Shown here one piece after another: positions 963-16,800 of a stretch of DNA of 23,999 nucleotides. How positions within the stretch are numbered: the first letter of the stretch is position 1; each line of letters opens with the position of its first letter. Origin of the DNA: a virus; IMG/VR virus record IMGVR_UViG_3300020474_000109, positions 1-23,999 of that record; one strand, written 5' to 3'. Below the pieces are notes generated by a model. It was given only the letters and a program-made list of their open reading frames with translations, ran no database searches and was not told the DNA's origin. The translations under genes and the position numbers were made by a program.

Positions 963-3341
963 TTAACAGAAAAAATAGGTGGAATTTGAAACAACTTTAG
1001 GGTCTAATGTTCCAACGATTGGTGGTGGCTCCGAGGCGTTGATGGTTTTTGCAAACTCTGACAGCCAACACTTCTCGGAAAAGATATTGGAGTAGGTTTC
1101 TCGCACAAGGCGATTGAGTGTTCCCATGTCTCCTGCTCTGCAAAGAACTGAGTCATGGATAACTGTGAATGGTTCATCAAATTGATTAAAAGATCTGTGA
1201 AGGATCGAAGCATCGAATGAATGTATATAATTGGGGGCAGTACTAGACTTATGTTTGATAGGACTAGGTGTAGATTTACCAGTAGGTATTCTTACTTGAG
1301 TCCTGCCTAACAGCTGTAGTTCCATGATCTGTGTCTCAATGTCATCTCTTTTTTGATTGACTGTGAAACCAGATGGTGTTACCCACTCAACTTCTTTAGC
1401 ACCATTTCTGATGTAAAGTCCGACATGCTTTTTTATCCATCGCATCACATTCATTGGGCCAGGCACGATACTGTCCATACTACTGTAAATAGCATTGACA
1501 ACCTGTGTTAACTCATCCTTTGTAGGATTGATACCCTTTTCAAGTAATGCCTCACGTATGTACTTGCGACTACTATCCTTAGTAGCATTGTAGGGAATTG
1601 TCATCACGGTGCGTTTGCACACGGAACGATTCATCCACGAGTGCATGTAATCTGGGAGAAACTGTTTAGCATTTTCAGCTACTGCTCTGTAAGCATCACT
1701 AGGTTTTTCACTAGGTACTACATTAACAAGTTCAGCTGTGCTCTTGTCTGCTGCCAAAGCTGCAAGGATCTGTAATCCTGAGCACGTGGCATCAACAGCC
1801 ACCATTAGACCTGTAGTAGGTTTATCTTTAGCAATACAACAGTGGTAGTATTCATGACAGCTTGACATAAATTGCCAAGGCTCATCTACCTCTTCCCATT
1901 CAGACAAATATCTAACTGGGTCAGTAGCAACTTTAGTGATAAGCTCGATATTCTCAGACACCCATTGATGTCTGTCCTCTAGTGTGCTTTTATCTAAACC
2001 ATAAGTTGTGGCTACTTGAAAAGACAACCATAACTCTGCTTCATCTGTCACACTAGACTCATCAGCGAAGTTTAAAATAGCTTTACCAAAGTCTGTATCT
2101 TGAGGTGTGAGGAAGGCTGGGATGGGGTATGCTCTTCCCCTGTAGTCGAATGACCAACATAGGTAGAACGACTCATCTTTAAATTTCTCAGCTGCCTCTA
2201 ATTGTGTTCTGGTTCTGACTGATCTTTTAAAATTGATACGGTCAGCATTGTAAGCCTCAGCCATAGATCTTCTCCATGACAAGTTAGACTTAGCATCATC
2301 ATCAGCATCAGCAGGACGTGATGGTTTGTAAGCTGGAGCTATAGGTATAAATTTACCTATTACTCTACCTCTTAACCTCATCTCCTCTGCTACTTCCAGT
2401 ACATGACGATTTACACAGTACTTCACCCGCTGTAACTTGTTTAAAAAGTTAATTGGTGCTTCCCCGTGTTTAATGTAGGGGTTAGATTTTCTAGTCAAAT
2501 CGTGACCTCTCATCATACGATTAGTCAAGTAACCACCATAGATGATACTACCCTCCTCATCATAGCCCCAATCGTCTGGTACGACTAGCATTGGCCAAGG
2601 TATTCCAGAGAATAGTTCAGCTGTTTTAATCAGCTCGTCACGTTTTGCCTCGAACTCAGGTGTGGGTACAACTTTGTACTCATAGCGTTTGCGGTGGGTT
2701 TTGCGTTTGTTGATGGTGAACCATCCTGTGGACTCCATAACTGCAGTCAAACCCCATCTACCAAGAGATACCTTTGTCTTTGTACCCCATGCTGGCCATC
2801 TTATGTCATGCTCACCAAATTTCTTGCTGGCAATAACTTGTTTCTGCATTGTGCCACAGGCATCATGAAAATACTTGTCACTAATATAGTGCATAAGTCC
2901 TGGGTAATTATGCTTATACCATCTAAACTTACATTCTGTCTCAAGTGCAGATCCAATGGCAGACATAGTTGGAACGAGTATGTTAGCCTGTCTTTTAGTG
3001 CTGAATACCCTGTCAAATGTCACCTTCAATAGGATAGTAGCAATAGCCAACGGCTCCAGCTCGTCAAGGTGCAGTGAGATCTCTTTATAGAACTTACCTG
3101 CTTGTCCTTTACTCAGTCGGTAAAAGGTATCCTCAACGGTCTTGATTAAGTACGGTAGTGCTTCTCTGATTGATGACACCCCGTACACGCTTGCGGAAGC
3201 GTAGGATTTCCCTTCTAGTTTCTCTAAAGAATCGTGAAGTCTTTGCTTCCCACAGTTGATTGCCTCCTGCTCTAGGAGAAATTGTCGGTGTAGGTTTGTA
3301 TGCGTCACCATAAGCGAGAAAGAGTGAGTATTCGTAGTCAT
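963..3341 (-). CDS. T7-like single-subunit RNA polymerase
   Basis: This 792-aa protein (counted from the ATG at 3339-3341) is a single-subunit DNA-directed RNA polymerase that transcribes middle and late phage genes. Visible motifs: DYRGR at about 399-403 (T7 DWRGR), motif A VAVDATCSGLQ with catalytic D517 (T7 D537), motif B CKRTVMTIPYNA with K576 and Y584 at the same 8-residue spacing as T7 K631/Y639, and motif C VIHDSV with D730 (T7 D812). It is shorter than T7 RNAP (883 aa), and its C-terminus is TYFFC rather than FAFA. The start is uncertain: the frame also opens at TTG 3353 and at ATG 3311, and none has a good Shine-Dalgarno. Homology to the T7 N-terminus begins only at NLHRQFLLEQEA, which favours 3311 or 3341. 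A near-identical 27-bp repeat lies inside it at 2459-2485. Confidence 0.96.
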   Translation of the reverse strand: MTTNTHSFSLMVTHTNLHRQFLLEQEAINCGKQRLHDSLEKLEGKSYASASVYGVSSIREALPYLIKTVEDTFYRLSKGQAGKFYKEISLHLDELEPLAIATILLKVTFDRVFSTKRQANILVPTMSAIGSALETECKFRWYKHNYPGLMHYISDKYFHDACGTMQKQVIASKKFGEHDIRWPAWGTKTKVSLGRWGLTAVMESTGWFTINKRKTHRKRYEYKVVPTPEFEAKRDELIKTAELFSGIPWPMLVVPDDWGYDEEGSIIYGGYLTNRMMRGHDLTRKSNPYIKHGEAPINFLNKLQRVKYCVNRHVLEVAEEMRLRGRVIGKFIPIAPAYKPSRPADADDDAKSNLSWRRSMAEAYNADRINFKRSVRTRTQLEAAEKFKDESFYLCWSFDYRGRAYPIPAFLTPQDTDFGKAILNFADESSVTDEAELWLSFQVATTYGLDKSTLEDRHQWVSENIELITKVATDPVRYLSEWEEVDEPWQFMSSCHEYYHCCIAKDKPTTGLMVAVDATCSGLQILAALAADKSTAELVNVVPSEKPSDAYRAVAENAKQFLPDYMHSWMNRSVCKRTVMTIPYNATKDSSRKYIREALLEKGINPTKDELTQVVNAIYSSMDSIVPGPMNVMRWIKKHVGLYIRNGAKEVEWVTPSGFTVNQKRDDIETQIMELQLLGRTQVRIPTGKSTPSPIKHKSSTAPNYIHSFDASILHRSFNQFDEPFTVIHDSVLCRAGDMGTLNRLVRETYSNIFSEKCWLSEFAKTINASEPPPIVGTLDPKVVSNSTYFFC
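2459..2485 (-). repeat. 27-bp dispersed element, copy A (inside RNA polymerase gene)
   Basis: The plus strand reads CTTCCCCGTGT, then T-T-A, then ATGTAGGGGTTAG. It matches copy B at 8739-8765 at 25 of 27 positions. On the transcribed minus strand it begins CTAACCCCTACAT and ends ACACGGGGAAG. A run of G preceded by an AC-rich stretch is a reasonable start context for a phage single-subunit polymerase. Here it also codes for the KSNPYIKHGEA segment of the polymerase, which has no clear counterpart in T7. Function is inferred. Confidence 0.6.
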
Positions 3342-3381
3342 CAAGACGGTCAATTTGGCGTTGTGTCAAATTAGTCATCAT
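3133..3381 (-). other. Out-of-frame ORF overlapping the RNA polymerase 5' end (possible small gene or frameshifted N-terminus)
   Basis: An 82-codon frame starts at ATG 3379-3381, overlapping the upstream gene's stop by 11 nt like other genes here. It runs into the polymerase gene in the frame one base away. Its first ~27 residues (MMTNLTQRQIDRLDDYEYSL and on) look protein-like. The later part is arginine-rich and reads like a shadow of the polymerase sequence. It could be a short real gene, or the original N-terminus of the polymerase separated by a +1 shift. No Shine-Dalgarno is visible. I cannot decide between these. Confidence 0.3.
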
Positions 3382-3649
3382 AAAGTTTGCATTGTTGTTC
3401 GTAAGGAAATACTTTACAGTACTCCTCCATGCTACTGAAGCATTGCCAGTTGGGTAAATAGAACCCTAACTCATATGCTGCATTGCGTTTGGTAATTAGC
3501 TGGCCTTGCGAGGCTAGAGTAACTAAGAACTTATCTATAGATGGTGGGCCACATGGGTCAAGCTCTATAAAAACTTCCCCTGTCTCATCATCTATGTAAT
3601 AGCCTAGTCGATCTAAACATTCTGATAGGTCATGTGGGTTTAGTGTCAT
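3371..3649 (-). CDS. Hypothetical early protein, 92 aa
   Basis: This is a 92-residue acidic protein I do not recognise. It starts MTLNPHDLSECLDRLGYYID and ends EYCKVFPYEQQCKLYDD. It has five cysteines, but they are scattered and no zinc-binding pattern is visible. The DDETGEVFIELD stretch looks like a beta hairpin. No signal peptide or membrane segment is present. Its ATG overlaps the preceding gene in an ATGA junction (3646-3649), so translation is probably coupled. It sits directly ahead of the RNA polymerase gene in the early operon, where T7-like phages keep small host-takeover proteins. No function can be assigned. Confidence 0.75.
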   Translation of the reverse strand: MTLNPHDLSECLDRLGYYIDDETGEVFIELDPCGPPSIDKFLVTLASQGQLITKRNAAYELGFYLPNWQCFSSMEEYCKVFPYEQQCKLYDD

Positions 3650-3942
3650 AAGATGTCAGATAAGGTGTCCAGTATTGCATTACCTGTCATGACTACATAA
3701 TCGTGGTCATTTACAAGTAAGTTTTTCATGTACCGTTTAGCTGCATTAGCTTGGCGATATGCTCGCTCCTCAATCTTGCCGTCAGTCTTCATTGCCCTGA
3801 CGACACAAACATACGAGGCGGGCAAATCCCAGGTGAGGGCTGCTTCATGGCCCATATCAAAGGAGACTTGAGTTAGCTCGTCAGTGGCTTTCCACTTGTT
3901 GAGTTCACGTATTCTATTTTTAAATGGGTCTGGTTTAGCCAT
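3646..3942 (-). CDS. Hypothetical early protein, 98 aa
   Basis: This is a 98-residue protein of unknown function. It opens with a basic, probably helical segment (MAKPDPFKNRIRELNKWK). The middle contains MGHEAALTWDLPASYVCVVR, followed by a second helical lysine/arginine-rich part (EERAYRQANAAKRYMKNLL). No known motif or membrane segment is visible. The ATG at 3940-3942 has no clear Shine-Dalgarno and lies within the end of the preceding small membrane-protein frame. Its stop overlaps the next ATG by 4 nt. Coding character is good and it fills the operon without gaps, so I consider it real. Confidence 0.7.
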   Translation of the reverse strand: MAKPDPFKNRIRELNKWKATDELTQVSFDMGHEAALTWDLPASYVCVVRAMKTDGKIEERAYRQANAAKRYMKNLLVNDHDYVVMTGNAILDTLSDIL

Positions 3943-4058
3943 GATAATGAGTTTCTAAAAGAATCTGATGGGTTGTCACGTGTAACAGCTGCGATGATGG
4001 AGAAAAAGCTCAAAGGAATAACCCAGAATAGAATTAGATCTTCATAAGTCTGTCTCAT
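3873..4058 (-). CDS. Small early membrane protein, 61 aa
   Basis: The frame starts at ATG 4056-4058, with a GAGGAG ribosome-binding site at 4064-4069, five bases upstream. It also makes an ATGA overlap with the 42-aa gene before it. Residues about 8-25 (LILFWVIPLSFFSIIAAV) form one likely transmembrane helix. The tail is polar and ends at 3873, so it overlaps the next gene by 70 nt, which is unusually long here. The strong initiation signal and the otherwise empty 110 nt argue that it is translated. A role in the host inner membrane is possible, but nothing more specific can be said. Confidence 0.55.
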   Translation of the reverse strand: MRQTYEDLILFWVIPLSFFSIIAAVTRDNPSDSFRNSLSWLNQTHLKIEYVNSTSGKPLTS

Positions 4059-4183
4059 ACAAGCTCCTCATCAAACCGCTTCATAGCGATCTCAGCTTGC
4101 TTGTCCTCATCATAGTAAGGGAAGGCTGCCTTGACTTCTTCAAAGATAGTTTCAAGGCGTTCTTGTGCGTGTGGTGTACTCAT
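4055..4183 (-). CDS. Small early protein, 42 aa
   Basis: This short gene starts at ATG 4181-4183, 2 nt after the stop of the preceding 68-aa gene. It ends in TGA at 4055-4057, overlapping the next start as ATGA. The product is about 42 residues, beginning MSTPHAQERLETIFEEVK and ending FDEELV. It is strongly charged and predicted helical, with no membrane segment. The gapless fit between two neighbours, and a GAGGAG motif at its 3' end that serves the next gene, support it. I do not recognise a family. Confidence 0.65.
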   Translation of the reverse strand: MSTPHAQERLETIFEEVKAAFPYYDEDKQAEIAMKRFDEELV

Positions 4184-4185
4184 AA

Positions 4186-4392
4186 TTAACAAATAAAGTG
4201 TCCGCTACAGGAGAATGACCATCTGAATGGATACATGTCACCGTATTCTTTGGCAACACGTTTGTCTATGATCTGTGCTATTGCGTCCCTGTCTTGATAT
4301 GTCAGGCAGTCGGCAACATTGATGTCCTTGGTACGGTGGAGCTGCTTGTTATGCTCCTCCGCTTGTTTCATGAGGTCATCGTACTCAGTCAT
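4186..4392 (-). CDS. Hypothetical early protein, 68 aa
   Basis: This 68-residue protein begins MTEYDDLMKQAEEHNKQLHR, a charged helix, and ends PFRWSFSCSGHFIC with two cysteines in the last eight residues. The centre (LTYQDRDAIAQIIDKRVAKE) also looks helical. The start is well supported by an AAGGAG ribosome-binding site at 4398-4403, five bases before the ATG, and by an ATGA overlap with the upstream 39-aa gene. Function is unknown. It is one of a run of tiny early genes ahead of RNA polymerase. Confidence 0.7.
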   Translation of the reverse strand: MTEYDDLMKQAEEHNKQLHRTKDINVADCLTYQDRDAIAQIIDKRVAKEYGDMYPFRWSFSCSGHFIC

Positions 4393-4508
4393 TCTTTCTC
4401 CTTGTCAGTAAATAAAAGATGTACTGATTCGCAGTAAGCGTCAACAACATCAAACTCAAATGGACAATCGTTATCGAGTAGCCATTCTGTTAGTTTTGAT
4501 TGATCCAT
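4389..4508 (-). CDS. Small early protein, 39 aa
   Basis: This very short gene starts at ATG 4506-4508, sharing one base with the stop of the upstream gene (TAATG). It ends at TGA 4389-4391, overlapping the next ATG (ATGA). The product begins MDQSKLTEWLLDNDCPFEFD and ends HLLFTDKEKE. It is acidic and compact, with no membrane segment. Precise junctions on both sides and a filled gap make it credible despite its size. It resembles the short acidic proteins often found in early regions of T7-like phages, but I cannot name it. Confidence 0.65.
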   Translation of the reverse strand: MDQSKLTEWLLDNDCPFEFDVVDAYCESVHLLFTDKEKE

Positions 4509-4774
4509 TAGTTGAGATCCTCCTCTTGCTTGAGTGTCCTGAGATTGTGTACCATAATCTTAAACTCTTCGTCAGCGTGAGGTCTATCCATCATGCGGTT
4601 GAGTCTACATAATGCAGATTCTTTTGTGTCAAAGATACCTACAATTATAGTCTCAAAGCTGTAAGGACTTACACGTTGGATTGAGTAAACAACAGGATCG
4701 TCAGTAACATCAAAGGTCTTGATGTATTTGTCAGTTGTTGGTTGGGTGATGTTTGTTTTGATGGAATTAGCCAT
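4508..4774 (-). CDS. Hypothetical early protein, 88 aa
   Basis: I place the start at ATG 4772-4774, giving 88 aa (MANSIKTNITQPTTDKYIKT onward). The frame stays open upstream to 4834, but those residues read as a shadow of the endonuclease gene, and this ATG gives the 8-nt overlap (ATGGCTAA) seen at other junctions here. The middle, VYSIQRVSPYSFETIIVGIF, looks like paired beta strands. It is followed by a helical DTKESALCRLNRMMD segment, a layout typical of a small alpha/beta fold. No known family is recognised and no catalytic motif is visible. Confidence 0.7.
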   Translation of the reverse strand: MANSIKTNITQPTTDKYIKTFDVTDDPVVYSIQRVSPYSFETIIVGIFDTKESALCRLNRMMDRPHADEEFKIMVHNLRTLKQEEDLN

Positions 4775-5111
4775 GTGATTGGAGCCAGTTGAGTGAGCGT
4801 TGCATAGTGGATGAGTCATCGTCAAACTTGCCAAAGGCTACGTTGCATGAGTCGCAGATGTAACCTCTAAACTTGTCAGTCTTATGGTCATGGTCAAGAA
4901 CCCATTTGGTGGTATGCCTACCACACGCAGGGCAGTCGCCAGCTGCAGGTACAGGATGGTTGCGTCTCAGTCTGCGTCTGACTGTCGCTTGTTTGTTGGA
5001 GCAATGTTTGCAAGTATTCTTGCGACCTGCTCCCTGAGTGCTGAATAGTGGAAACTCTTCCAGTAGTTTGGTTTCTCCACATTCTTTGCATTTTTTAGAG
5101 ACATTCTGCAT
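4767..5111 (-). CDS. Recombination endonuclease VII-like HNH nuclease
   Basis: This 114-aa protein carries a typical endonuclease VII (T4 gp49-type) core. A zinc site is formed by C60-x2-C63 and C86-x2-C89. Between them is the catalytic DHDH motif at 73-76, followed by RGYICDSCNVAFGKFDDD with N90 after the last cysteine. Ahead of it is a second cysteine set, C8-x2-C11 and C34-x2-C37, which probably forms an N-terminal zinc ribbon for DNA binding. Such enzymes cut branched DNA or act as free-standing homing-like nucleases. Endonuclease I also occurs here, so two junction-type nucleases coexist. The start overlaps the preceding gene by 17 nt. Confidence 0.88.
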   Translation of the reverse strand: MQNVSKKCKECGETKLLEEFPLFSTQGAGRKNTCKHCSNKQATVRRRLRRNHPVPAAGDCPACGRHTTKWVLDHDHKTDKFRGYICDSCNVAFGKFDDDSSTMQRSLNWLQSHG

Positions 5112-5307
5112 AGTAGTTGGTGTAGATTACCTCATCTGATAGGTGGCCAAGGCCAGCATCTTCGAGTATGTCGTAGATGTCTCTACCATCTTGGTCAAAT
5201 TCTACAGTAACAGTGTTGTTAGCTGCTGGGTTGTAGTTGTACCCTGCCTCCAATATGGAGGAGGATACAGACTTGTCGAATGTAACAGTCATTGTGTGGC
5301 TAGACAT
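5095..5307 (-). CDS. Hypothetical early protein, 70 aa
   Basis: I start this gene at ATG 5305-5307, giving 70 aa. The open frame extends to 5415, but the added residues overlap the KTSC gene and look non-native, while this ATG makes the recurring 8-nt overlap (ATGTCTAG). The product begins MSSHTMTVTFDKSVSSSILE. A middle NNTVTVEFDQDGRDIYDILE looks like a strand followed by a helix. It is acidic, with no cysteine motif or membrane segment. A later in-frame ATG at residue 6 (MTVTF) is an alternative start. Function unknown. Confidence 0.65.
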   Translation of the reverse strand: MSSHTMTVTFDKSVSSSILEAGYNYNPAANNTVTVEFDQDGRDIYDILEDAGLGHLSDEVIYTNYYAECL

Positions 5308-5590
5308 TAGGGAGTACAGGTTGTTGTAAGACTCGCACCTTGGCAAGCTTGTGTTTGTAGATAGAGACTGGTGTAATCTCTTTGCACTTGACACTCTTGA
5401 GTTTGCAGTTGGCATTGACCCAGAATCCTAAGCTCATGTTAGGCTGTGCAAGTAGGTTGGCGATAGCTCTACGAGATACGTTGGTGTACTCATAGCGTGT
5501 ATCTGTCAAGAACTCAACGATAGCTGTGCCTGATAATGGGTCTACGTCAATAGACTTAACACATGTTGAAGTACGTGATTTTGGTTGCAT
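5300..5590 (-). CDS. KTSC-domain protein
   Basis: Counted from ATG 5588-5590, this is a 96-aa protein whose first two thirds resemble the KTSC domain, a small domain of unknown biochemical role found in phage and bacterial proteins. The pattern is visible: SRTSTCVKSIDVDPLSGTAI is the first strand pair, VEFLTDTRYEYTNVSRRAIA gives the aromatic Y-x-Y-x-x-V core, and SLGFWVNANC is the usual closing motif. The basic tail ends KLAKVRVLQQPVLPNV. An earlier in-frame ATG at 5632 would add 14 residues that do not look like part of the domain. There is no Shine-Dalgarno at either start. The domain call is from pattern recall. Confidence 0.65.
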   Translation of the reverse strand: MQPKSRTSTCVKSIDVDPLSGTAIVEFLTDTRYEYTNVSRRAIANLLAQPNMSLGFWVNANCKLKSVKCKEITPVSIYKHKLAKVRVLQQPVLPNV

Positions 5591-5615
5591 ACGGTTGATA
5601 ATGATGGTGAAACAG

Positions 5616-5630
5616 GAGGGTGAGACCCTC
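5616..5630 (-). other. Short hairpin ahead of the KTSC gene
   Basis: A perfect 6-bp inverted repeat (GAGGGT/ACCCTC) with a 3-nt loop lies in the gap between the methyltransferase gene and the KTSC gene. There is no U-tract, so it is unlikely to be a terminator. It could be an RNA-processing or translation-control stem. The evidence is structural only. Confidence 0.35.
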
Positions 5631-5662
5631 ATCCAACATTGTAGTCATGCTGGAGGAGAACG

Positions 5663-6262
5663 TCAACCCCATTGTGCTGCCATAGCATCGGCAATACCTT
5701 GGAATGTGGTAGAACGTAGTTTCCATCTGTCTTTTGACGGAGGTAGATAATGTAGACGTTGGCGTACTTTGTTAGGTAATCCTGACACATCTACGTAGTC
5801 TGTAGGTTCTAGCTTGGGTAAACCACGCAGCCATAGCCCAGTCTTTTTCTGTTCTGAATGTCCGAACATGTACGGCTGGACATACTGGCTGGCCTTGCCT
5901 AGCTTGGAACGTGATGACAACGCACCAACAGGATTCTCTATACATAGCTTGACACCTGTGGCATCATGCAAGTCCCAGATACGCTCAACAAACCGTATAG
6001 CTGCAGGTTGTCGGCCATCTTTGACCTTCTCAGCCCATCGAGCTGCACCGCTGACGCTAAGGTGCGTACATGGTGGATGGGCTATGATGAGATCCCAGTC
6101 ATAAACATTGTGCGGGTATATGAGATCGAACATATTGCCTTGGTAATGTTTACCGTCAGGTCTGTCCGATGGCAGGAAGTCACAGGATGTAGCATCATGG
6201 CCACGCTTGGTAAATGCGTCACGTACTACACCGCTGTACTCACATGCTACGAGTACTTTCAT
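5663..6262 (-). CDS. C5-cytosine methyltransferase-like protein
   Basis: This 199-aa protein looks like the catalytic part of a DNA cytosine-5 methyltransferase. The N-terminus MKVLVACEYSGVVRDAFTKR fits the SAM-binding motif I. The catalytic Pro-Pro-Cys is at 63-65 in IIAHPPCTHLS, and the motif VI-like CIENP is at about 107-111. At 199 aa it is much shorter than a typical C5 methylase (300 aa or more), and no target-recognition domain is evident. Its specificity is unclear, and action on a free nucleotide or a different base cannot be excluded. Expressed early and with no partner restriction enzyme in the window, it could protect phage DNA from host restriction. Confidence 0.78.
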   Translation of the reverse strand: MKVLVACEYSGVVRDAFTKRGHDATSCDFLPSDRPDGKHYQGNMFDLIYPHNVYDWDLIIAHPPCTHLSVSGAARWAEKVKDGRQPAAIRFVERIWDLHDATGVKLCIENPVGALSSRSKLGKASQYVQPYMFGHSEQKKTGLWLRGLPKLEPTDYVDVSGLPNKVRQRLHYLPPSKDRWKLRSTTFQGIADAMAAQWG

Positions 6263-6280
6263 GGGCGTGATGATTGAGAA

Positions 6281-6430
6281 TTAACAGTGTGGATGTTTGT
6301 GGCGTAGTCGCCTGTATTCTAAGTATTGGATAGCTCTACGCACATCGTCTGGGAGTACGTGAGAGTCCTTTGACGGTATCGAAATACCATCGCTCGACTT
6401 CTTGGCTGGGGAATTGGTAGTGTCTGTCAT
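6281..6430 (-). CDS. Hypothetical early protein, 49 aa (overlaps next gene out of frame)
   Basis: Counted from ATG 6428-6430, this frame gives 49 residues ending PDDVRRAIQYLEYRRLRHKHPHC, which looks like a genuine helical basic C-terminus. The frame is open back to 6478. It overlaps the 69-aa frame at 6336-6545 by 95 nt, far more than other junctions in this genome, and it lies in the frame one base away. Either it is a separate overlapping gene, or it is the true C-terminus of the upstream gene joined by a +1 shift. No Shine-Dalgarno is visible. Confidence 0.45.
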   Translation of the reverse strand: MTDTTNSPAKKSSDGISIPSKDSHVLPDDVRRAIQYLEYRRLRHKHPHC

Positions 6431-6545
6431 GTAAATCTGTAAGAACGGATAAGAGTACGGGATCATTGACGGCATCACACATGATGCTGTGATCAGTCAT
6501 GACGGAATCGTCAAGGAATGGCATGAGAGTTAATTGTTTAGACAT
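6336..6545 (-). CDS. Hypothetical early protein, 69 aa
   Basis: The start at ATG 6543-6545 is supported by the recurring 8-nt overlap with the upstream stop (ATGTCTAA). The product begins MSKQLTLMPFLDDSVMTDHS. A convincing middle, VLTDLHDRHYQFPSQEVERW, is likely helical with an aromatic end. The last dozen residues (VKGLSRTPRRCA) are less protein-like, and at that point the neighbouring frame looks better, which hints at a frameshift. No membrane segment or known motif. Function unknown. Confidence 0.55.
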   Translation of the reverse strand: MSKQLTLMPFLDDSVMTDHSIMCDAVNDPVLLSVLTDLHDRHYQFPSQEVERWYFDTVKGLSRTPRRCA

Positions 6546-7161
6546 TGTGAATACGTTTGTGTGTCACCCATGTTATAGCTTGGATGTCAGCGGCTGTAAA
6601 GGATTCGTTAAGCTCTTCATTGATAAAGCTAGTCGCATCAACATAATCATCCTTGATTTGTTGGCGTAACTTCTTACCAATGTTAGGCACTTGCTTCATA
6701 GTTAGACGTTGACCGAACCAGACACTATAGGCGTGACCGTCAATACATACGTCATTGAGAGCTGAGTTAGTGATGCAGTTGAAGAACTCGATGATTTTAG
6801 GGCCGTTGAGAATCTCAACTATTGAATGACCCCATCTTAGGATGTCAAGTGCTTTCTCTTGCATTTTCGTGTAGGTACAAACCTTCACGGCCAGGATGTC
6901 CTCATCTGTACCGCCTGCGGCCCAACATTTGATGATGGCCTCAGCGTCTATGATGTTACGCTCCCAGCGATTGTTTGGCGATAATGCAGCGATGACACCT
7001 GCAGCAACTTCGGGACGTAGACCGTACTTGTTAGCAATACGGCAACTGATTTGGAAAGCTGATGCATACCAGTCACAACCGAGCTGTACTTCTTGCGATG
7101 TAGCTAGTGTAAACTTGGCGACTATCTCTCTTGCATTAACGCTCAACTGAGCGTATGTCAT
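6538..7161 (-). CDS. First early gene: conserved phage protein of unknown function, possibly glycosylase-fold
   Basis: This 207-aa protein starts at ATG 7159-7161, behind an AGGAGG ribosome-binding site at 7175-7180. The spacing is rather long at 13 nt. The frame runs on to a TTG at 7227, but that codon is part of the promoter's TTGACA box, so the extension is not used. Recognisable features are WYASAFQISCRIANKYG, GVIAALSPNNRWERNIIDAE and the later VCIDGHAYSVWFG. The combination LSPxxxWxxN plus D-G-H-A recurs in a phage family of unknown function that may adopt a helix-hairpin-helix glycosylase-like fold. That assignment is from memory and weak. It is the first gene made after infection. Confidence 0.75.
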   Translation of the reverse strand: MTYAQLSVNAREIVAKFTLATSQEVQLGCDWYASAFQISCRIANKYGLRPEVAAGVIAALSPNNRWERNIIDAEAIIKCWAAGGTDEDILAVKVCTYTKMQEKALDILRWGHSIVEILNGPKIIEFFNCITNSALNDVCIDGHAYSVWFGQRLTMKQVPNIGKKLRQQIKDDYVDATSFINEELNESFTAADIQAITWVTHKRIHNV

Positions 7162-7174
7162 GAGTAGTAATAAA

Positions 7175-7180
7175 CCTCCT
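7175..7180 (-). promoter_or_regulatory. Ribosome-binding site AGGAGG of the first early gene
   Basis: A perfect AGGAGG lies 13 nt before the ATG at 7161. Most genes here have no Shine-Dalgarno, so this leader site stands out. It decides against the longer TTG-started frame, whose start would lie upstream of it. Confidence 0.6.
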
Positions 7181-7199
7181 TGATGTTTGACTTGATTTA

Positions 7200-7227
7200 A
7201 ATCTAGCAAATCATTTTTATTTGTCAA
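7200..7227 (-). promoter_or_regulatory. Early host-type promoter 3 (TTGACA-16-TAGATT)
   Basis: A perfect -35 TTGACA at 7222-7227 is followed after 16 bp by TAGATT at 7200-7205, a 4/6 match to the -10 consensus. It points into the first early gene, and transcription would start just before the AGGAGG site. With the two promoters upstream it resembles the T7 A1-A2-A3 cluster used by host RNA polymerase. Confidence 0.6.
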
Positions 7228-7304
7228 GTATCAATTTATTTGTCTTTAAGTTTTGACTGATTGAGTGACTTGATTAATAAGTTTGTGATTTGTTCGATGA
7301 CCTA

Positions 7305-7333
7305 ACAATATCAACTATCAATGGCACTGTCAA
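7305..7333 (-). promoter_or_regulatory. Early host-type promoter 2 (TTGACA-17-TATTGT)
   Basis: A perfect -35 box at 7328-7333 is followed, at the optimal 17-bp spacing, by TATTGT at 7305-7310, a 4/6 match to the -10 consensus. It faces the early genes. It is about 105 bp upstream of promoter 3 and about 235 bp downstream of promoter 1. Confidence 0.6.
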
Positions 7334-7541
7334 CCATAAAACTAAAAGATGAGTATAAATACTTAGTCAGTCCTTTTTACATATATATAGAGTAATTCGA
7401 TTCGGGCCAATGATAGTGAATTTTTATTTATAGCTATGGTCTAGAATGTAACGGTAAGAGAATTGGCATGTGACAATCTAATAAGTGTAACTGTGGAATA
7501 TGTAACATTGCTTAACATTCTGAAATCTTTATATATAACCT

Positions 7542-7569
7542 ATTAAAACTTATAAACAAATAGTGTCAA
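7542..7569 (-). promoter_or_regulatory. Early host-type promoter 1 (TTGACA-16-TTTAAT)
   Basis: A perfect -35 TTGACA at 7564-7569 is followed after 16 bp by TTTAAT at 7542-7547, a 5/6 match to the -10 consensus. The surrounding DNA is very AT-rich. It is the outermost and best-scoring of three promoters directed at the early operon. Confidence 0.65.
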
Positions 7570-7680
7570 GACTTTAGTCATAGACAGATGTCTGGCCATT
7601 TACATAAAGTAATATAGCCCCGCAATCATCCCCGCTAACACAGTTCAAAGTGTTGTCAATATGATTGTGAGCATACCAGC

Positions 7681-7744
7681 AAAAATAAAAAGTCCCCGCA
7701 AGATAGGTATAAATACTCTTGACAGTACGTCAGTACTAGCGGGG
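7681..7744 (-). terminator. Probable late-transcript terminator
   Basis: On the minus strand a CCCCGC arm (7739-7744) pairs with GCGGGG (7694-7699). The roughly 39-nt interior contains a further small stem, AGTAC/GTACT. The 3' arm is followed by AC, then five Ts, A, and five Ts. The long loop makes it non-classical. However, a GC-rich arm followed by a T-tract, placed just after the last late gene and before the early promoters, is where a late terminator is expected. Confidence 0.45.
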
Positions 7745-7755
7745 CATGAGGGGGG

Positions 7756-7914
7756 TCACCGCAAATCGCATAGCGGTATATCCCTACAAACAATTTTGTC
7801 AAAATTTAAGGAGACATCTTTTCCCCTATTTCTGTGCCACACATATCCTGCAAGGCTGAGAGGAGCAGCCACACGTAGTATAAGTAATACTAATATAACT
7901 TTTTTAACATTCAT
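7756..7914 (-). CDS. Small secreted or membrane-anchored protein, 52 aa
   Basis: This short gene starts at ATG 7912-7914, overlapping the preceding stop by 11 nt (as at two other late junctions), and ends at TGA 7756-7758. The 52-aa product begins MNVKKVILVLLILRVAAPLS and continues L-A-G. This is a textbook signal peptide: basic N-region, hydrophobic core, small residues at the cleavage site. The mature part is about 30 residues, basic, with cysteines in IVCRDIPLCDLR that could form a disulfide. It is the last gene before the terminator. No family is recognised. A lysis or envelope role is possible, but only from its export signal and position. Confidence 0.6.
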   Translation of the reverse strand: MNVKKVILVLLILRVAAPLSLAGYVWHRNRGKDVSLNFDKIVCRDIPLCDLR

Positions 7915-8446
7915 TAAACTCAGAAGCCATGTTTCCTCCTATCTTACCACCTTCTCTCTGTGCTGTATTAGTAGCAAAGCCAGCTAAGAACCACCCTATC
8001 ATAGGAACATTAGCTAACGATGTTGTCAATCCTGTTCCTGTAGCCACTGATGTACCAATAAGCTTACCTGTAGATTCACCTTTAGCCTTTTCCTCTATAC
8101 ACGCAATCTGTTTTGCTGTTAGATCACCATTAGTTACAACGGTTATATCTTTTTCTCCAGCTATTCTTTGTGTTTCTTTCATTACTGTAGCTTTACTACC
8201 ACCTAAAAAACCTGCTGGTTTCTTGCTAGTTTCTATTGATCCAATAATTTTAGGATCATGCATTTTATGCCTTATCTTATAGCCTTTTTTACTAGCTTCT
8301 ATTTCATAAGTAGAGTATTTACTAACAGGTAGGTTAAACATAGGTAAGTTTGGTTTCTTACTTAATAAACTAATTGTATAAAAGTTAGAAACAACAAAGA
8401 TAGTACCAAGTCCTGCTGATACCCCTTTTATAATATTATTATTCAT
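7904..8446 (-). CDS. Hypothetical membrane protein, 180 aa
   Basis: This 180-aa protein has an N-terminal hydrophobic helix (about 5-28, IIKGVSAGLGTIFVVSNFYT) and a second long glycine/alanine-rich hydrophobic stretch at about 129-160 (GTGLTTSLANVPMIGWFLAG). Between them is a polar, lysine-rich domain that includes VVTNGDLTAKQIACIEEKAK. Two membrane segments enclosing a soluble domain suggest an inner-membrane protein, perhaps involved in lysis or in late membrane events. It follows the large terminase, where T7 carries its Rz-like and gp19.5 genes, but no sequence similarity to those is apparent. The ATG overlaps the previous stop as ATGA. Confidence 0.75.
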   Translation of the reverse strand: MNNNIIKGVSAGLGTIFVVSNFYTISLLSKKPNLPMFNLPVSKYSTYEIEASKKGYKIRHKMHDPKIIGSIETSKKPAGFLGGSKATVMKETQRIAGEKDITVVTNGDLTAKQIACIEEKAKGESTGKLIGTSVATGTGLTTSLANVPMIGWFLAGFATNTAQREGGKIGGNMASEFNEC

Positions 8447-8601
8447 CTGGTTTTCAACATACGGTTAAGTTTTTGTTTTTCTAACTCAATCTTCATTTGT
8501 TTTTGGGTTAAGGTAGGCCAGCGATCTAGTAACAAACTTCGTCTGAAGTTTTTGTACCATTTACTTCTCTTCACTCTTAACCATACTTGTTGTATTGTCA
8601 T
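8443..8601 (-). CDS. Small basic protein, 52 aa
   Basis: From ATG 8599-8601 this gives 52 residues, beginning MTIQQVWLRVKRSKWYKNFR and ending LEKQKLNRMLKTR. It is strongly basic with several tryptophans and is predicted to be helical, which could suit nucleic-acid or membrane-surface binding. The frame is open upstream to a GTG at 8655, but that part overlaps structured leader sequence and looks non-coding. There is no Shine-Dalgarno. The ATGA overlap with the next gene supports the stop and the frame. Function unknown. Confidence 0.6.
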   Translation of the reverse strand: MTIQQVWLRVKRSKWYKNFRRSLLLDRWPTLTQKQMKIELEKQKLNRMLKTR

Positions 8602-8664
8602 GGTTGTACTGTACGTAGGTGCTAGAGAGTAGTAGAAGGAGGTTATATATAGCACGAAAGTAAT

Positions 8665-8730
8665 CTCGTGTTAGAAGAGGGGGAGGCTTTTAGACCTCTC
8701 ACCCTCTTGACCGCTGTTTCCACCCACGAG
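8665..8730 (-). other. Large stem-loop element after the large terminase
   Basis: An inner hairpin pairs AAGAGGG (8675-8681) with CCCTCTT (8702-8708) and continues with GAGG/CCTC (8683-8686 with 8695-8698). An outer pair, CTCGTG (8665-8670) with CACGAG (8725-8730), encloses it. A competing stem, CACGA/TCGTG (8653-8657 with 8666-8670), is also possible. There is no U-tract, so an RNase III-type processing stem or a structured leader is more likely than a terminator. It lies directly downstream of repeat copy B in the direction of transcription. Confidence 0.55.
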
Positions 8731-8738
8731 GAGCACCA

Positions 8739-8765
8739 CTTCCCCGTGTCTTATGTAGGGGTTAG
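8739..8765 (-). repeat. 27-bp dispersed element, copy B (after large terminase)
   Basis: The plus strand reads CTTCCCCGTGT, then C-T-T, then ATGTAGGGGTTAG. It is 25/27 identical to copy A at 2459-2485, in the same orientation. It begins 2 nt past the terminase stop codon, in the longest intergenic gap of the late region, and is followed by a strong RNA hairpin. The position resembles that of the T7 phiOR promoter near the right genome end. A role as a phage RNA polymerase promoter is inferred, not shown. Confidence 0.6.
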
Positions 8766-8766
8766 C

Positions 8767-10494
8767 TTACATCCAAGTGTGTGTATGGCTTTTGGTAGAT
8801 CCTCTAGCCTCTCTTCTTTGGTCTAAATCCATCCCCATAACCATATGGTTGGCTTCTGCTTGAGGATCATCCATCCAAGCCTCTAGGTGGTCTATCCACT
8901 CTTGTTGTCTTCTGTCTTTTATTTGTTCTGTTGCTGAGAGTGCTAAGGCATCTGTATACCATTTAACGCCTTGGGCGAGGGCATCGATTCTGTCATCGTG
9001 TCTAACAGCTCCTTTTTCTCGGCACATTCTGCTGATTTGGTAAGCAAGCATATATTGGAATCTATTTTCAGTCGCCTCATCCTCATTACTTTTATAATCC
9101 CATTTAATGACGGCAGGATCCACAACAAGCCTATGCTGATTAAAGACAGGTTCAAGGCTACTAATAATACGATCTTCTTTCCTGACATTTGCTCTGGTTT
9201 CCTCTATGTTGATGTGTGTTTTGGTCGTTTGACAGTGTTTTTTGAATAGCTCTGATACAATACCATCGCCAAAGTTACTCTCGATGAGCAATGTACTCGC
9301 ACCATACTTCTTACACCTCTTTAATATGTTTAATAATGTATTGTCGCTGTAACCGTCTCTAGTAGCGTATACTTCGTGTAGGTATATGAATCCATTCAAC
9401 TGTGATAGGAAGCATGCTACAGTCTCATCTGAGCCCCTTCCAGAGGGGTCTACGCTACAAATGGTCTCGCTATATTCTTTCCACTCTCCCTGCACCTGCA
9501 TTGGCTTATAATAATAGTCCCCTGGAAGCCCCGCACACGGCAAGTCTTTGACCATGTTTTCTGGGTTAGAGCACCATATTATGTTTTCGGGTGCGTGTGT
9601 TGGATTAACAGGGTTAATTATTAGGTCTGCAAACTTTAACGGGAACTTTTCTGCGTCAGATAAGGTAGTATCTAGCATAAACTGCAACATAAAGTTACTA
9701 CGCCCCATAGATGCCTCTCTTTCGAGTAGATCACCTTCTTTAAAACGTGTATCTGTAGGTTCCCATGCTAAATTATTTTTGTCTAAGTCTGCTTGTAGCT
9801 GAGGTGCTAACAATCCGTCATACATAGCAGTTTTGCGGGGGTATCTAGCTGGCCATACAAATGGTCTGTAGCTACGTTCCCTTAGCTTGTTATATACAGT
9901 GAATGTCGTCTGAGGAGTGCCGAGAAACATAATACGAGAGTCACGTTTAGGAGTAAGAATAGACTCACATTCAGTAACAAGCTGTAAAAGTTTTTCACGT
10001 TGTAGCTCCGTCATACTATTGTTTGGTACTTCTACGTCATCGAGTACCATTAGATCTGCCCTAGAACCAGTTAGCTGTCCTGTAATACCTACAGACTTAA
10101 CTGAGGGGGCTTGATGCGGGGCTGCTGGCCCTACGTCAAATGATATACGTGACCATCTCTGATCATCGTTCTTAGGCTTTAGCTGTGCCATCCAAGGCAC
10201 TTCTAGTATTAGTCGTTGGCAGAATATGGAGAAACTGTCAGCTCTATCTTTAGATGCCGATACAACCATGATCTTTTTATCAGGGTCGTTAAATAACGTC
10301 CAAAGAACGAAAGCAGCAGTAATCCAAGATTTACCGACACCACGAAAGGCTTGGATTTGTAGTCGTTTTGGGCCATTTTGGAGATACTCCGCTATACATA
10401 ACTGTGCTCTTGTAGGAGCTGGTAAGCTAAGGTGTGTCCACACAGCAGTTAAAAAGTATCTAAAATCCTCATGAAGTTTTGATTCAATACCCAT
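8767..10494 (-). CDS. Terminase large subunit (T7 gp19-like, ATPase and nuclease)
   Basis: This 575-aa protein is the DNA-packaging motor and maturation nuclease. The ATPase has a Walker A-like QAFRGVGKSW at about 48-57 and Walker B LMVLDDVE with D152/D153, followed by the coupling stretch IMFLGTPQT. The nuclease domain begins ICSVDPSGRGSDE with D349, continues through LLIESNFGDG, and ends with the metal-binding DDRIDALAQ (D504). Length matches the T7 family (586 aa). I chose ATG 10492-10494, which overlaps the endolysin gene by 11 nt, rather than a TTG three codons earlier. It works with the small terminase encoded nearby. Identification is secure. Confidence 0.97.
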   Translation of the reverse strand: MGIESKLHEDFRYFLTAVWTHLSLPAPTRAQLCIAEYLQNGPKRLQIQAFRGVGKSWITAAFVLWTLFNDPDKKIMVVSASKDRADSFSIFCQRLILEVPWMAQLKPKNDDQRWSRISFDVGPAAPHQAPSVKSVGITGQLTGSRADLMVLDDVEVPNNSMTELQREKLLQLVTECESILTPKRDSRIMFLGTPQTTFTVYNKLRERSYRPFVWPARYPRKTAMYDGLLAPQLQADLDKNNLAWEPTDTRFKEGDLLEREASMGRSNFMLQFMLDTTLSDAEKFPLKFADLIINPVNPTHAPENIIWCSNPENMVKDLPCAGLPGDYYYKPMQVQGEWKEYSETICSVDPSGRGSDETVACFLSQLNGFIYLHEVYATRDGYSDNTLLNILKRCKKYGASTLLIESNFGDGIVSELFKKHCQTTKTHINIEETRANVRKEDRIISSLEPVFNQHRLVVDPAVIKWDYKSNEDEATENRFQYMLAYQISRMCREKGAVRHDDRIDALAQGVKWYTDALALSATEQIKDRRQQEWIDHLEAWMDDPQAEANHMVMGMDLDQRREARGSTKSHTHTWM

Positions 10495-11065
10495 ATCTGT
10501 CAATTACATAAGGGCTATACTTTGATACAGGTTTTTGTCTAGTAATTTTATAAGGTTCATTAAATAAATCTATTTCTGCATTACGTCTGTTTACTAAACC
10601 TTCAGACTCACTGTAACCTCTTGGGTCATTTTTGTCTTCTACGTTTACGTAAAGAGGAAATGCTTCCTGTATACCTTTAACATCATTTTTATTTATAGCT
10701 TTAGTCATAGTGCCAAAACCTTCTTTATCATCCATAAAGTTAGCTCCAAAATTATAACCAAAAGATACAATAGCATCTCGTTGATTAGGATTTAATTTGT
10801 CATATCCTGGCATTTGGCTAATACGACTTTCTACTTGCCCTACATAATTATTAAGTAGTTCAGTAGCACGTTCCTCTGTTATTGCAGAATCTTCCATTGT
10901 TACAGGAGTACCATCGTCATAAAACCTATTACCATAACCTATAGTTGGTAACCCAGCTTGATCTAAGTAAGGTTCTGGTCTAAATCCTTCAGATTCTTTT
11001 AAAAAATCAGTTAATCGGTTGTTTTTATTATATGTCGCAGTCGGAACTGTTGGGGTTTGTGTCAT
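10484..11065 (-). CDS. Endolysin, GH24 (T4-type) lysozyme
   Basis: This 193-aa protein is a glycoside hydrolase family 24 muramidase that cuts peptidoglycan for lysis. The triad E26 (KESEGF), D35 (YLDQAG) and T41 (PTIGYG) has exactly the E11-D20-T26 spacing of T4 lysozyme. The usual QRDAIVSFGYNFG and GLVNRRNAEIDLF motifs follow. There is no signal peptide, so export would need a holin; the two-helix protein at 13166-13486 is a candidate. The C-terminal ~25 residues, ending KYSPYVIDRYGY, extend past the core. Its start overlaps the preceding gene by 38 nt. T7 itself uses an amidase (gp3.5), so a GH24 enzyme beside the terminase is a difference from T7. Confidence 0.93.
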   Translation of the reverse strand: MTQTPTVPTATYNKNNRLTDFLKESEGFRPEPYLDQAGLPTIGYGNRFYDDGTPVTMEDSAITEERATELLNNYVGQVESRISQMPGYDKLNPNQRDAIVSFGYNFGANFMDDKEGFGTMTKAINKNDVKGIQEAFPLYVNVEDKNDPRGYSESEGLVNRRNAEIDLFNEPYKITRQKPVSKYSPYVIDRYGY

Positions 11066-13845: not shown

Positions 13846-16800
13846 TTAACCAGCCTCTAATGCAGCTACTTTTGTTTCTAAAGTTTCTACTTTTGTAATT
13901 AACTCTTGTATAGCTTTAGCAGATACAGTCATAAATTTTACAGGAACAAGTTGTGTTTTTCCTAGTTCGTCAGTTATTGGATCTTTACTCTGAAATGTAA
14001 AACTATTATCTAGTGTTTCGACTTCTTGTGCAATAACACCACAAGTCTCTCTTTTAGTAGTATCAAATCCACTGTCTTCTTTCCAATCAAAATCTACAAA
14101 TCTTAGATTTTTAATTACTGAAGTTGCATCATATGTTGTATCAGTTATATTTTGTTTTAGTGTTGCATCAGATACGTTATAGTACACACCAAATCCACCA
14201 GAAGTTGTACCAACGTGTAGGTAATTACCTCCATGAGCAAGGTCATGTACACTATTACTAGAAGAATATACTAAACCATAACTAGTACCATTTCTATAAG
14301 TAGCATAGTCAGATACATTTGCGTGTGCTACAGCCGAAGTAACTTGTGCTCCAGTGTGAGTATGACTGGTAGCTGCATATGAGTGATTATGAGATGATCC
14401 TGCATAGGAACTGTCATGATTATGGGAAGTACCTGAGTAACCAGAGTGACTGTGACTTGTTGCAGCATAACTATGGCTATGGCTTGTTGCAGCATAACTA
14501 TGGCTATGGCTTGAAGCAGCATAACTGTGAGTGTGACTCGTAGCAGCATAACTGTGACTATGGCTACTTGATGCATACGGATGACTATGAGCTGTAGCAT
14601 AGTAAGAACCATGTTGACCGTCTAGTAAATCTGCATCTAATCCACTACTTGCACCATCTACAGTTTTAACAAGTGTAAGTATTTCAGAAGCAGTTTGGTC
14701 TTGGGTAGCATTACTTTCAATATTATCAAGTTTGTCGTGGTGCGTTGCAGACATAACTCCAGCAGCAGTACTGTTTGCCTCACCTATGATTGCATTGCTT
14801 CCTGAGCTACTTTGTACTGTAACATCAGTTGTACTAGTAGTAGCGACTAAATTTGTAGTTGTGTTAACTGAGTTTGTACTTGCACTTGTAATACGACCTT
14901 GAGCATCAACTGTAAGAGCAGGTATAGCTGTAGATGATCCATAACTACCAGCAGTAACAGTCGTATCAGCAAGTTTGTCAGCAGTTACTGCATCATCAGC
15001 AATATTTCCTTCAATAATAGTGTCATTTGCTATTTCTAATGCTGTAACTGCATTTGCAGCAATATGTGCTGACCTAACAGCATTGTCAGCTATTTCAGTA
15101 TGATCTACTGCATCAGCACCTATTTTGTCGTTTGTAATCGCATCATTAGCAATTTTTCCTGTAGTAACATTTAGGGCAGCTATCTTAGCTGTTGTTACGT
15201 TTGCATCTGCTATTTTAGCTGTTGTTACGTTTGCATCTACGATAGAAGCTGTTACGACTGCACTACTAGCTAATTGATCCGCACCAACTGCATCATCTGC
15301 AATCTTAGCTTGTGTAACTGCATCATCTGCAATCTTAGCTGTAGTAACTGCATCATTAGCTATTGTTAAAGATGTAGCACCTGTAACGTCACCTGTGTGG
15401 GTAGCGTTGGTTACTTTAGCTGTGTTAGCTGCAACATCTGTAGCTATGTCTATACCGTCAACTGTACCAGATACAGTGATATTACCTGTTACACCTATAC
15501 CACCAGATTGTACTTCTAGTTTTGTATTACCACCAGTTTGTATTTTTAAGTTACCTGTACCAGTATCATTAATTATTGAATCACTAGCATTATGGAATAT
15601 TTCTAAGTCTGAACTTGTACCAAGTTTTAATTTAGCATTATCATTATAAACATTATCACCAGTAAATGTATTACCAGTTGAAACTGCAAAGTTACCACTA
15701 GCTGTTACACCACCTTGCCAAGCACCACCATTATAAACTTTAAGTTCGTTAGCAGTACTATTAAAATACAAATCTCCTTCTACCAAACTTGAACCATCAG
15801 CTCTAGTTGATGGGTTGCTAGTAGCAATTTGGTAGACATCAGCAAAATTGTTGACATCACTAATATTAGTTGAAACATTAGTAACATCAGTAATATTACT
15901 AGCAACAGTATTAACATTTGCTATTGAATTTCCAGTGTTATTAACATTTGTAATATTTGTAGCAACTACATCAACACGGTCATCAACAACAGTAATAGTA
16001 GTACCCATAGCATTGCCATGTATTCCACAATAATACTTTAATGAACTAGGAGCGTTGTCTGCAACAACAATAGTTACGGTAGCACCCGAACTACCAGCTG
16101 TACCACTTGTTGTAACTCCTGTAGTGTAAGCTGCATCTGATGCATTTTTAAATAATAAAGGATGGTTAGTATTAGTATTATCAGCTAAATTAAATATATA
16201 TGTTGAGCCTCTAGCTAAAAATAAAACAGGAGTCTGTACACCGTCAATAAAATACTTATTACTACCACTGACATTTTGTACAGTAACTGTAAATGTCTGT
16301 GTAGAATCTAAAGCATTTGCTACACTGTTTACGTTTGTTATGTTTGTAGCAACAGTATTAATATTAGTAGCATTACTTACAGCAGAGTTAATATTAGTAG
16401 CATTACTTACTGCTGAGTTAATATTTGAAGCATTACTAACAGCAGCATTTATATTTGATTCATTGCTAACCGCTGAGTTAATGTTAGAAGCATTACTTAC
16501 AGCAGAATTAATATTAGACGCATTGCTTACAGCAGAGTTAATATTTGAAGCATTATTTGCAACTGCATTTATATTAGTTATATTACCAGCTACAGTTGTA
16601 ACTTCTGTTGCTTTTGGTACTAATCTGTGAAACGTATATGTATGCAGTGTGCTTGTAGATTCTACTAAAAATCCAAAATCTTGAGGTATGGTAGATGTTA
16701 CACCAGTTATAGTAATATTAGCATTGTTTGCTAAGTTACCATTAGATATTGTTACTGTTGTACCACTAGGAGTCAACGCTGTACTAGCTGCTTTAATACT

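Follow-up and report, generated by a model that had tools for sequence, protein, structure and literature searches.

Both copies of a 27-bp element that occurs twice in the window are, on comparative evidence, almost certainly promoters for the phage's own T7-like single-subunit RNA polymerase (RNAP). The window, the whole stretch of DNA analysed here, is a 23,999-bp viral contig that is kin to the T7-like phages of Prochlorococcus, and its nearest named relatives are NATL2A-133, P-SSP10 and 9515-10a. One copy (A) lies within the RNAP gene and the other (B) just after the large terminase gene, terL. Phage promoters had been proposed for these sites by the sequence-only reading, and the proposal holds because changes in the element go along with changes in the promoter-reading residues of the RNAP encoded by the same phage and because the promoter of phage Syn5 is found at the same two places.

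A repeated element in the RNAP gene and after terL

Copies A and B are identical at 25/27 positions and lie on the same strand (Table 1), so that the coordinates, orientation and match count given by the sequence-only reading were all reproduced. When up to three mismatches were allowed, two matches were found in the window compared to none in 100 dinucleotide-preserving shuffles. The repeat is far beyond chance, as had been claimed, because the copies also stay matched to each other across relatives while their sequence changes. The minus strand carries the genes for endonuclease I, an SSB-like protein, RNAP and terL. On this strand, copy A makes up the RNAP ORF codons S-N-P-Y-I-K-H-G-E, and the first base of copy B is the second base past the terL stop, in agreement with the earlier placement of this copy beside that stop.

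No third site with up to five mismatches to the 20-nt core was found in the 24-kb window, which is a partial genome. An absence of further copies had been put forward as grounds for rejecting the promoters; the argument does not apply, since two copies per genome are the rule in this phage group. Scans of positions 2000-9000 for sigma-70-like and terminator-like signals gave results at about the level of shuffled sequence. Apart from the element, the window contains a long tail-fibre-like ORF (13846-18396), in which a 27-nt repeat block and numerous in-frame repeats of 30 nt are found.

Table 1. Coordinates in the window of the element copies and associated features.
Feature	Position	Strand	Remarks
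Copy A, predicted phage-RNAP promoter	2459..2485	-	inside RNAP gene, codons 290-298
Bases of copy A	-8 = 2477, -7 = 2476, predicted +1 = 2469		+1 from Syn5 alignment
Copy B, predicted phage-RNAP promoter	8739..8765	-	just after terL
Bases of copy B	-8 = 8757, -7 = 8756, predicted +1 = 8749		+1 from Syn5 alignment
T7-like single-subunit RNA polymerase gene, predicted reader	963..3353	-	first codon TTG of listed ORF; true start may be further in
Codon 676 (Ile), specificity loop	1326..1328	-	covaries with base -7
Codon 686 (Gln), specificity loop	1296..1298	-	covaries with base -8
Large terminase gene terL	8767..10503	-	ends just before copy B
Hairpin at predicted 5' end of B transcript	8725..8748	-	CACGGGGA / loop AGTGGTGC / TCCTCGTG
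Conserved tail after hairpin, GGTGGAAACAGCGGTCAA	8707..8724	-	no Rfam family

Covariation of the element with the specificity loop

Viral contigs were scanned with the RNAP and with terL, and 80 loci were fetched for each. Many close relatives have both elements in place, with letters that vary at positions 9 and 10 (bases -8 and -7) of CTAACCCC[9][10]CATNNNACACGGGGAAG. Copies A and B of the same contig agree at these variable bases in 27/28 contigs, the exception being L025; the 28 contigs correspond to 29 rows, since L090 and L050 come from the same contig, and include only contigs whose copy B fits one fixed pattern. The upstream half of the element is quite different in P-SSP10, yet that phage's own two copies are alike at 25/27 positions.

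For comparison with the protein, a set of 76 RNAP genes was obtained from 88 rows by leaving out four in which the element was not alignable by the same codons (L003, L004, L133 and L137), L090 as the same contig as L050, and then exact DNA duplicates. The RNAP gene of NATL2A-133 (L004), at 37817-39931, is unannotated in its record, as it is in several others. Base -7 follows residue 676 in 75/76 of these relatives (Ile with A, Gln with T, Arg with C), and base -8 follows residue 686 in 73/76 (Gln with T, Ser or Cys with A, Arg with C). When codon 293, which is part of the element itself, was left out, each of the two residues ranked first for its base among 350 variable columns; normalised MI was 0.94 for -7/676 and 0.71 for -8/686, and reached about 0.25 at best in columns outside the loop. 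In a reverse scan of 1246 variable nucleotides of the gene, the best nucleotide for residue 686 was base -8 and the best for residue 676 was base -7.

Shared descent was controlled for with a tree from which the loop and the element had been left out; on this tree the two bases change 18 and 16 times. Phylogenetically independent pairs were concordant (e.g., 12/12 for T at -7 with Gln, p = 0.0005), with on average no opposite pair in the six classes tested; the class of A at -7 with Ile had only four independent pairs, too few to reach significance. The three sequences that break the code (L030, L080 and L083) and the contig with mismatched copies (L025) may be recombinants, chimeric assemblies or phages caught during a switch of specificity.

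The -8 base in a second clade

A second clade, MPP-A, was assembled from 160 loci fetched with the RNAPs of P-SSP7 and S-CBP1 together with five reference phages; these 165 loci gave 153 unique sequences, and bases were read at the homologous codon. Base -8 again followed the same loop position. The pairings predicted from the first clade were seen in 50/50 sequences with Gln (T) and 44/48 with Arg (C), and rules read off the second clade itself covered Lys (A, 24/25), Asn (T, 17/18), Glu (G, 6/6) and His (C, 3/3). Exceptions were confined to 5/153 sequences in the Arg and Lys classes and one with Asn. In tree-controlled pairs, T accompanied Gln or Asn in about 22.6/24 (median p = 2e-7), C accompanied Arg in about 13.8/18 (median p = 1e-4), and C at -9 accompanied Arg at loop residue G+1 in about 5/6 (p = 0.06).

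Other bases of the element also pointed to particular residues. Over the 511 variable columns of this clade, -9 was linked to G+1, -10 and -11 to G-5, -5 to the residue aligned with T7 G238, which we take to belong to the intercalating hairpin, and -4 to the residue aligned with T7 K206. The homologous polymerase of T7 reads bases -8 to -11 with the equivalent loop region, and the available part of PMC5937735 assigns -8 to Q758, -9 to R756 and -10/-11 to N748. The register of the loop relative to T7 is ambiguous, residue 686 being aligned with either R756 or Q758 depending on the alignment. The rule linking -7 to G-7 fails in MPP-A, where Arg is found with C in only 22/38. Pairs involving base -2 (L478 and V302) scored as high as some of the links above, probably through the shared descent of nine sequences. 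An apparent link between -12 to -14 and the AT-rich-loop region was dropped as not specific in the reverse scan.

A fixed pattern gave candidates for copy B in 34/153 MPP-A contigs, and 25 of these agree with copy A at -9 to -7 (10.5% between contigs). Among the nine that do not, L175, L266, L326 and L332 share at most 4/11 bases and represent either a wrong register or the lack of a true copy B; in the case of S-RIP1 (L175), the true copy was found elsewhere in the record. The two copies differ in at least five MPP-A contigs (L238, L243, L235, L322 and L314). Taken over both clades, base -8 probably follows a code in which Gln and Asn specify T, Arg and His specify C, Lys and Ser specify A, and Glu specifies G.

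Identity of the variable bases within a genome would also be expected if the copies were partners in recombination or gene conversion, such as the core of a site-specific recombination system, kept identical through mutual pairing. Recombination partners, however, would not be predicted to carry bases that follow two RNAP loop residues in two clades, nor would the Syn5 precedent be predicted, and we regard this explanation as very unlikely.

Layout of the predicted promoter pair in cyanopodoviruses

A two-promoter layout is already known from Syn5, and the predicted promoters of the window are a further member of it. As described in the accessible portion of PMC3950665, the Syn5 RNAP uses a 15-bp promoter present in two copies per genome, one of them inside the RNAP gene, and one promoter serves over 37 kb. 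We located the Syn5 copies at 4929 (codon 270) and 44797 (6 nt after terL). The copy in the RNAP gene is thus at a homologous place in the two phages (codon 270 in Syn5, codon 290 in the window), the second is just after terL on the same strand in both, a hairpin with loop AGTGGTGC follows the terL copy in both, and Syn5 has exactly two copies, as does the window in its 24 kb of a partial genome. The Syn5 promoter, however, is ATTGGGCACCCGTAA, the two RNAPs are only 36% identical, and promoter activity has been demonstrated for Syn5 whereas that of the window is predicted. The window element matches neither the Syn5 15-bp sequence nor the T7 consensus, as the sequence-only reading had stated, and it belongs with Syn5 by layout, not by sequence. 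Syn5 itself has Arg at the loop position linked to -8, yet A and not C at that base; the portion of PMC6395800 at hand gives the A(-8)C promoter an activity comparable to wild type.

The pair within the RNAP gene and after terL is present in 13/13 cyanopodovirus genomes, namely Syn5, the window, P-SSP10, NATL2A-133, 9515-10a, P60, SS120-1, S-CBP42, P-SSP7, S-CBP1, NATL1A-7, S-RIP1 and S-TIP37, and the conservation of copy B that had been called for is therefore seen throughout. With up to four mismatches allowed, two copies each were found in 12/12 reference or window sequences and also in S-CBP42; among 12 related viral records, several of which are fragments, eight had two copies, three had one and one had none. 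The copies occupy the same two places and match within each genome, and the upstream sequence differs from lineage to lineage. A pair in the RNAP gene and after terL that exceeds shuffled sequence was absent from both pelagiphages examined, HTVC019P and HTVC011P, and the layout is therefore not shared by all Autographiviridae.

T7 differs from this arrangement in several respects. Its element is unrelated to that of the window, it uses about 15 promoters (PMC3950665, in the part available) compared to only two in the window with one inside the RNAP gene, and its first annotated promoter after gene 1, phi1.1A, is downstream of the gene and not inside it. The statement that copy A lacks a T7 counterpart is correct for T7 itself, but Syn5 does have a counterpart inside its RNAP gene.

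In all 13 genomes copy B lies close behind terL, a position that would also suit a right-end signal for packaging, for the terminase or at a concatemer junction, copy A then being a by-product. Copy A, however, is equally conserved and constrained, and the letters of the element follow the RNAP loop, which makes a packaging signal highly improbable as the explanation of the pair. Copy B could be a promoter and packaging-related at once. No report of the covariation or of the family-wide layout was found in the titles and abstract openings of the open-licence literature, and both the conservation across the family and a polymerase-promoter code that can be read look new (further sources, in the parts available: PMC11477551, PMC13029058, PMC4646655, PMC10134795, PMC5082946 and PMC8776855).

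A hairpin after copy B

To place the start site, Syn5 (+1 = G of GCAAGAG) was aligned with the window through the hairpin common to both. The alignment puts the predicted +1 at the A of ACACGGGG. This base precedes the G-run by 4 nt, and the G-run that had been suggested as the start is probably not the start site. A transcript of copy B from the predicted +1 would fold as CACGGGGA-AGUGGUGC-UCCUCGUG. Over 28 distinct stems, 192/224 cells pair compared to a shuffled maximum of 157, and in MPP-A, whose members have the loop AAGGGTGGA in place of the window's AGTGGTGC, 254/344 cells pair compared to a shuffled maximum of 208; the stem sets comprise every match to the loop pattern, chance ones included, and relatedness among the sequences is lost in the shuffle. 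The hairpin, with one or the other loop, is followed by a tail, GTGGAAACAGCGGTCAA, and this arrangement occurs after the post-terL promoter at 8707-8748 of the window and in 13 cyanopodovirus genomes. A search of 8400-9000 against Rfam returned one match, with an E value of 1.3 and below the gathering score, and thus no known RNA family. The hairpin and tail are a candidate for a new structured RNA.

A hairpin with compensatory changes directly after copy B might indicate that the two copies function at the RNA level, for instance as a regulatory sequence or one bound by a protein. Copy A, however, lacks the 3' arm and does not fold into the hairpin of copy B, and the part of the element that varies is located upstream of this hairpin and tracks the RNAP loop. 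An RNA element is thus extremely improbable as an account of the two copies.

Constraint on the coding sequence at copy A

The element within the RNAP gene is constrained at the DNA level. In MPP-A its synonymous constraint is the strongest among 736 seven-codon windows, and its codons R, I and Q rank 2, 1 and 3 of 744. In the clade of the window, four codons of the element show no synonymous change, although the whole stretch ranks only 31/732. The protein sequence varies with the promoter as well, RNAP residue 293 being Y, I, T, L, F or S according to promoter type. Chance or a protein-coding coincidence, which has only copy A being coding sequence in its favour, retains virtually no probability in view of this constraint, the 0/100 shuffles and the pair in 13/13 genomes.

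These data suggest that each cyanopodovirus RNAP gene carries a copy of the promoter recognised by its product. We consider it likely that the data contain a natural code from loop residue to base and reflect repeated switches of specificity, with residue 293 dictated by the promoter and not by the protein.

Proposed mode of transcription and implications

In T7, early RNA, including that for the polymerase, is made by the host RNAP, and the same is probably true here. The phage RNAP would then read about -11 to -4 of the element, with specificity-loop residue 686 reading base -8 and residue 676 reading base -7. By analogy with Syn5, promoter A may start one very long transcript that covers most of the genome. 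Transcripts from A would begin at about codon 290 of the RNAP gene, so that they would not include a full-length polymerase mRNA and the enzyme would not amplify itself. Promoter B might fire at the right end and be used for the genes located there, for an origin or in the processing of concatemers; phiOR of T7 is said to serve the right genome end in this way, as an origin or in concatemer processing. RNA from B would begin with the conserved hairpin. Two conserved proteins of unknown function, encoded at 6538-7227 (DUF7178/phrog_3842) and 7904-8446 (phrog_605), lie between copy B and the RNAP gene, in the path of the predicted B transcripts. We speculate that the frequent switches in specificity may reflect competition between co-infecting phages.

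The analysis assigns predicted promoters to an entire group of ocean phages. Among them is the model phage P-SSP7, for which no phage-RNAP promoter appears in the parts of the literature available; the element positions in its genome (NC_006882.2) put the predicted starts at 6866 and 43833. The pair suggests a way for such phages to run a genome of about 45 kb from two start sites, and it suggests a simple safeguard against self-amplification of the polymerase, in which the promoter is too deep in the gene to remake the enzyme. If every cyanopodovirus RNAP gene carries a promoter that is read by its own protein, each metagenomic gene records both sides of a protein-DNA interface, and the phages together would form a large natural data set on promoter choice by single-subunit RNA polymerases, in which matched polymerase-promoter pairs can be read from sequence.
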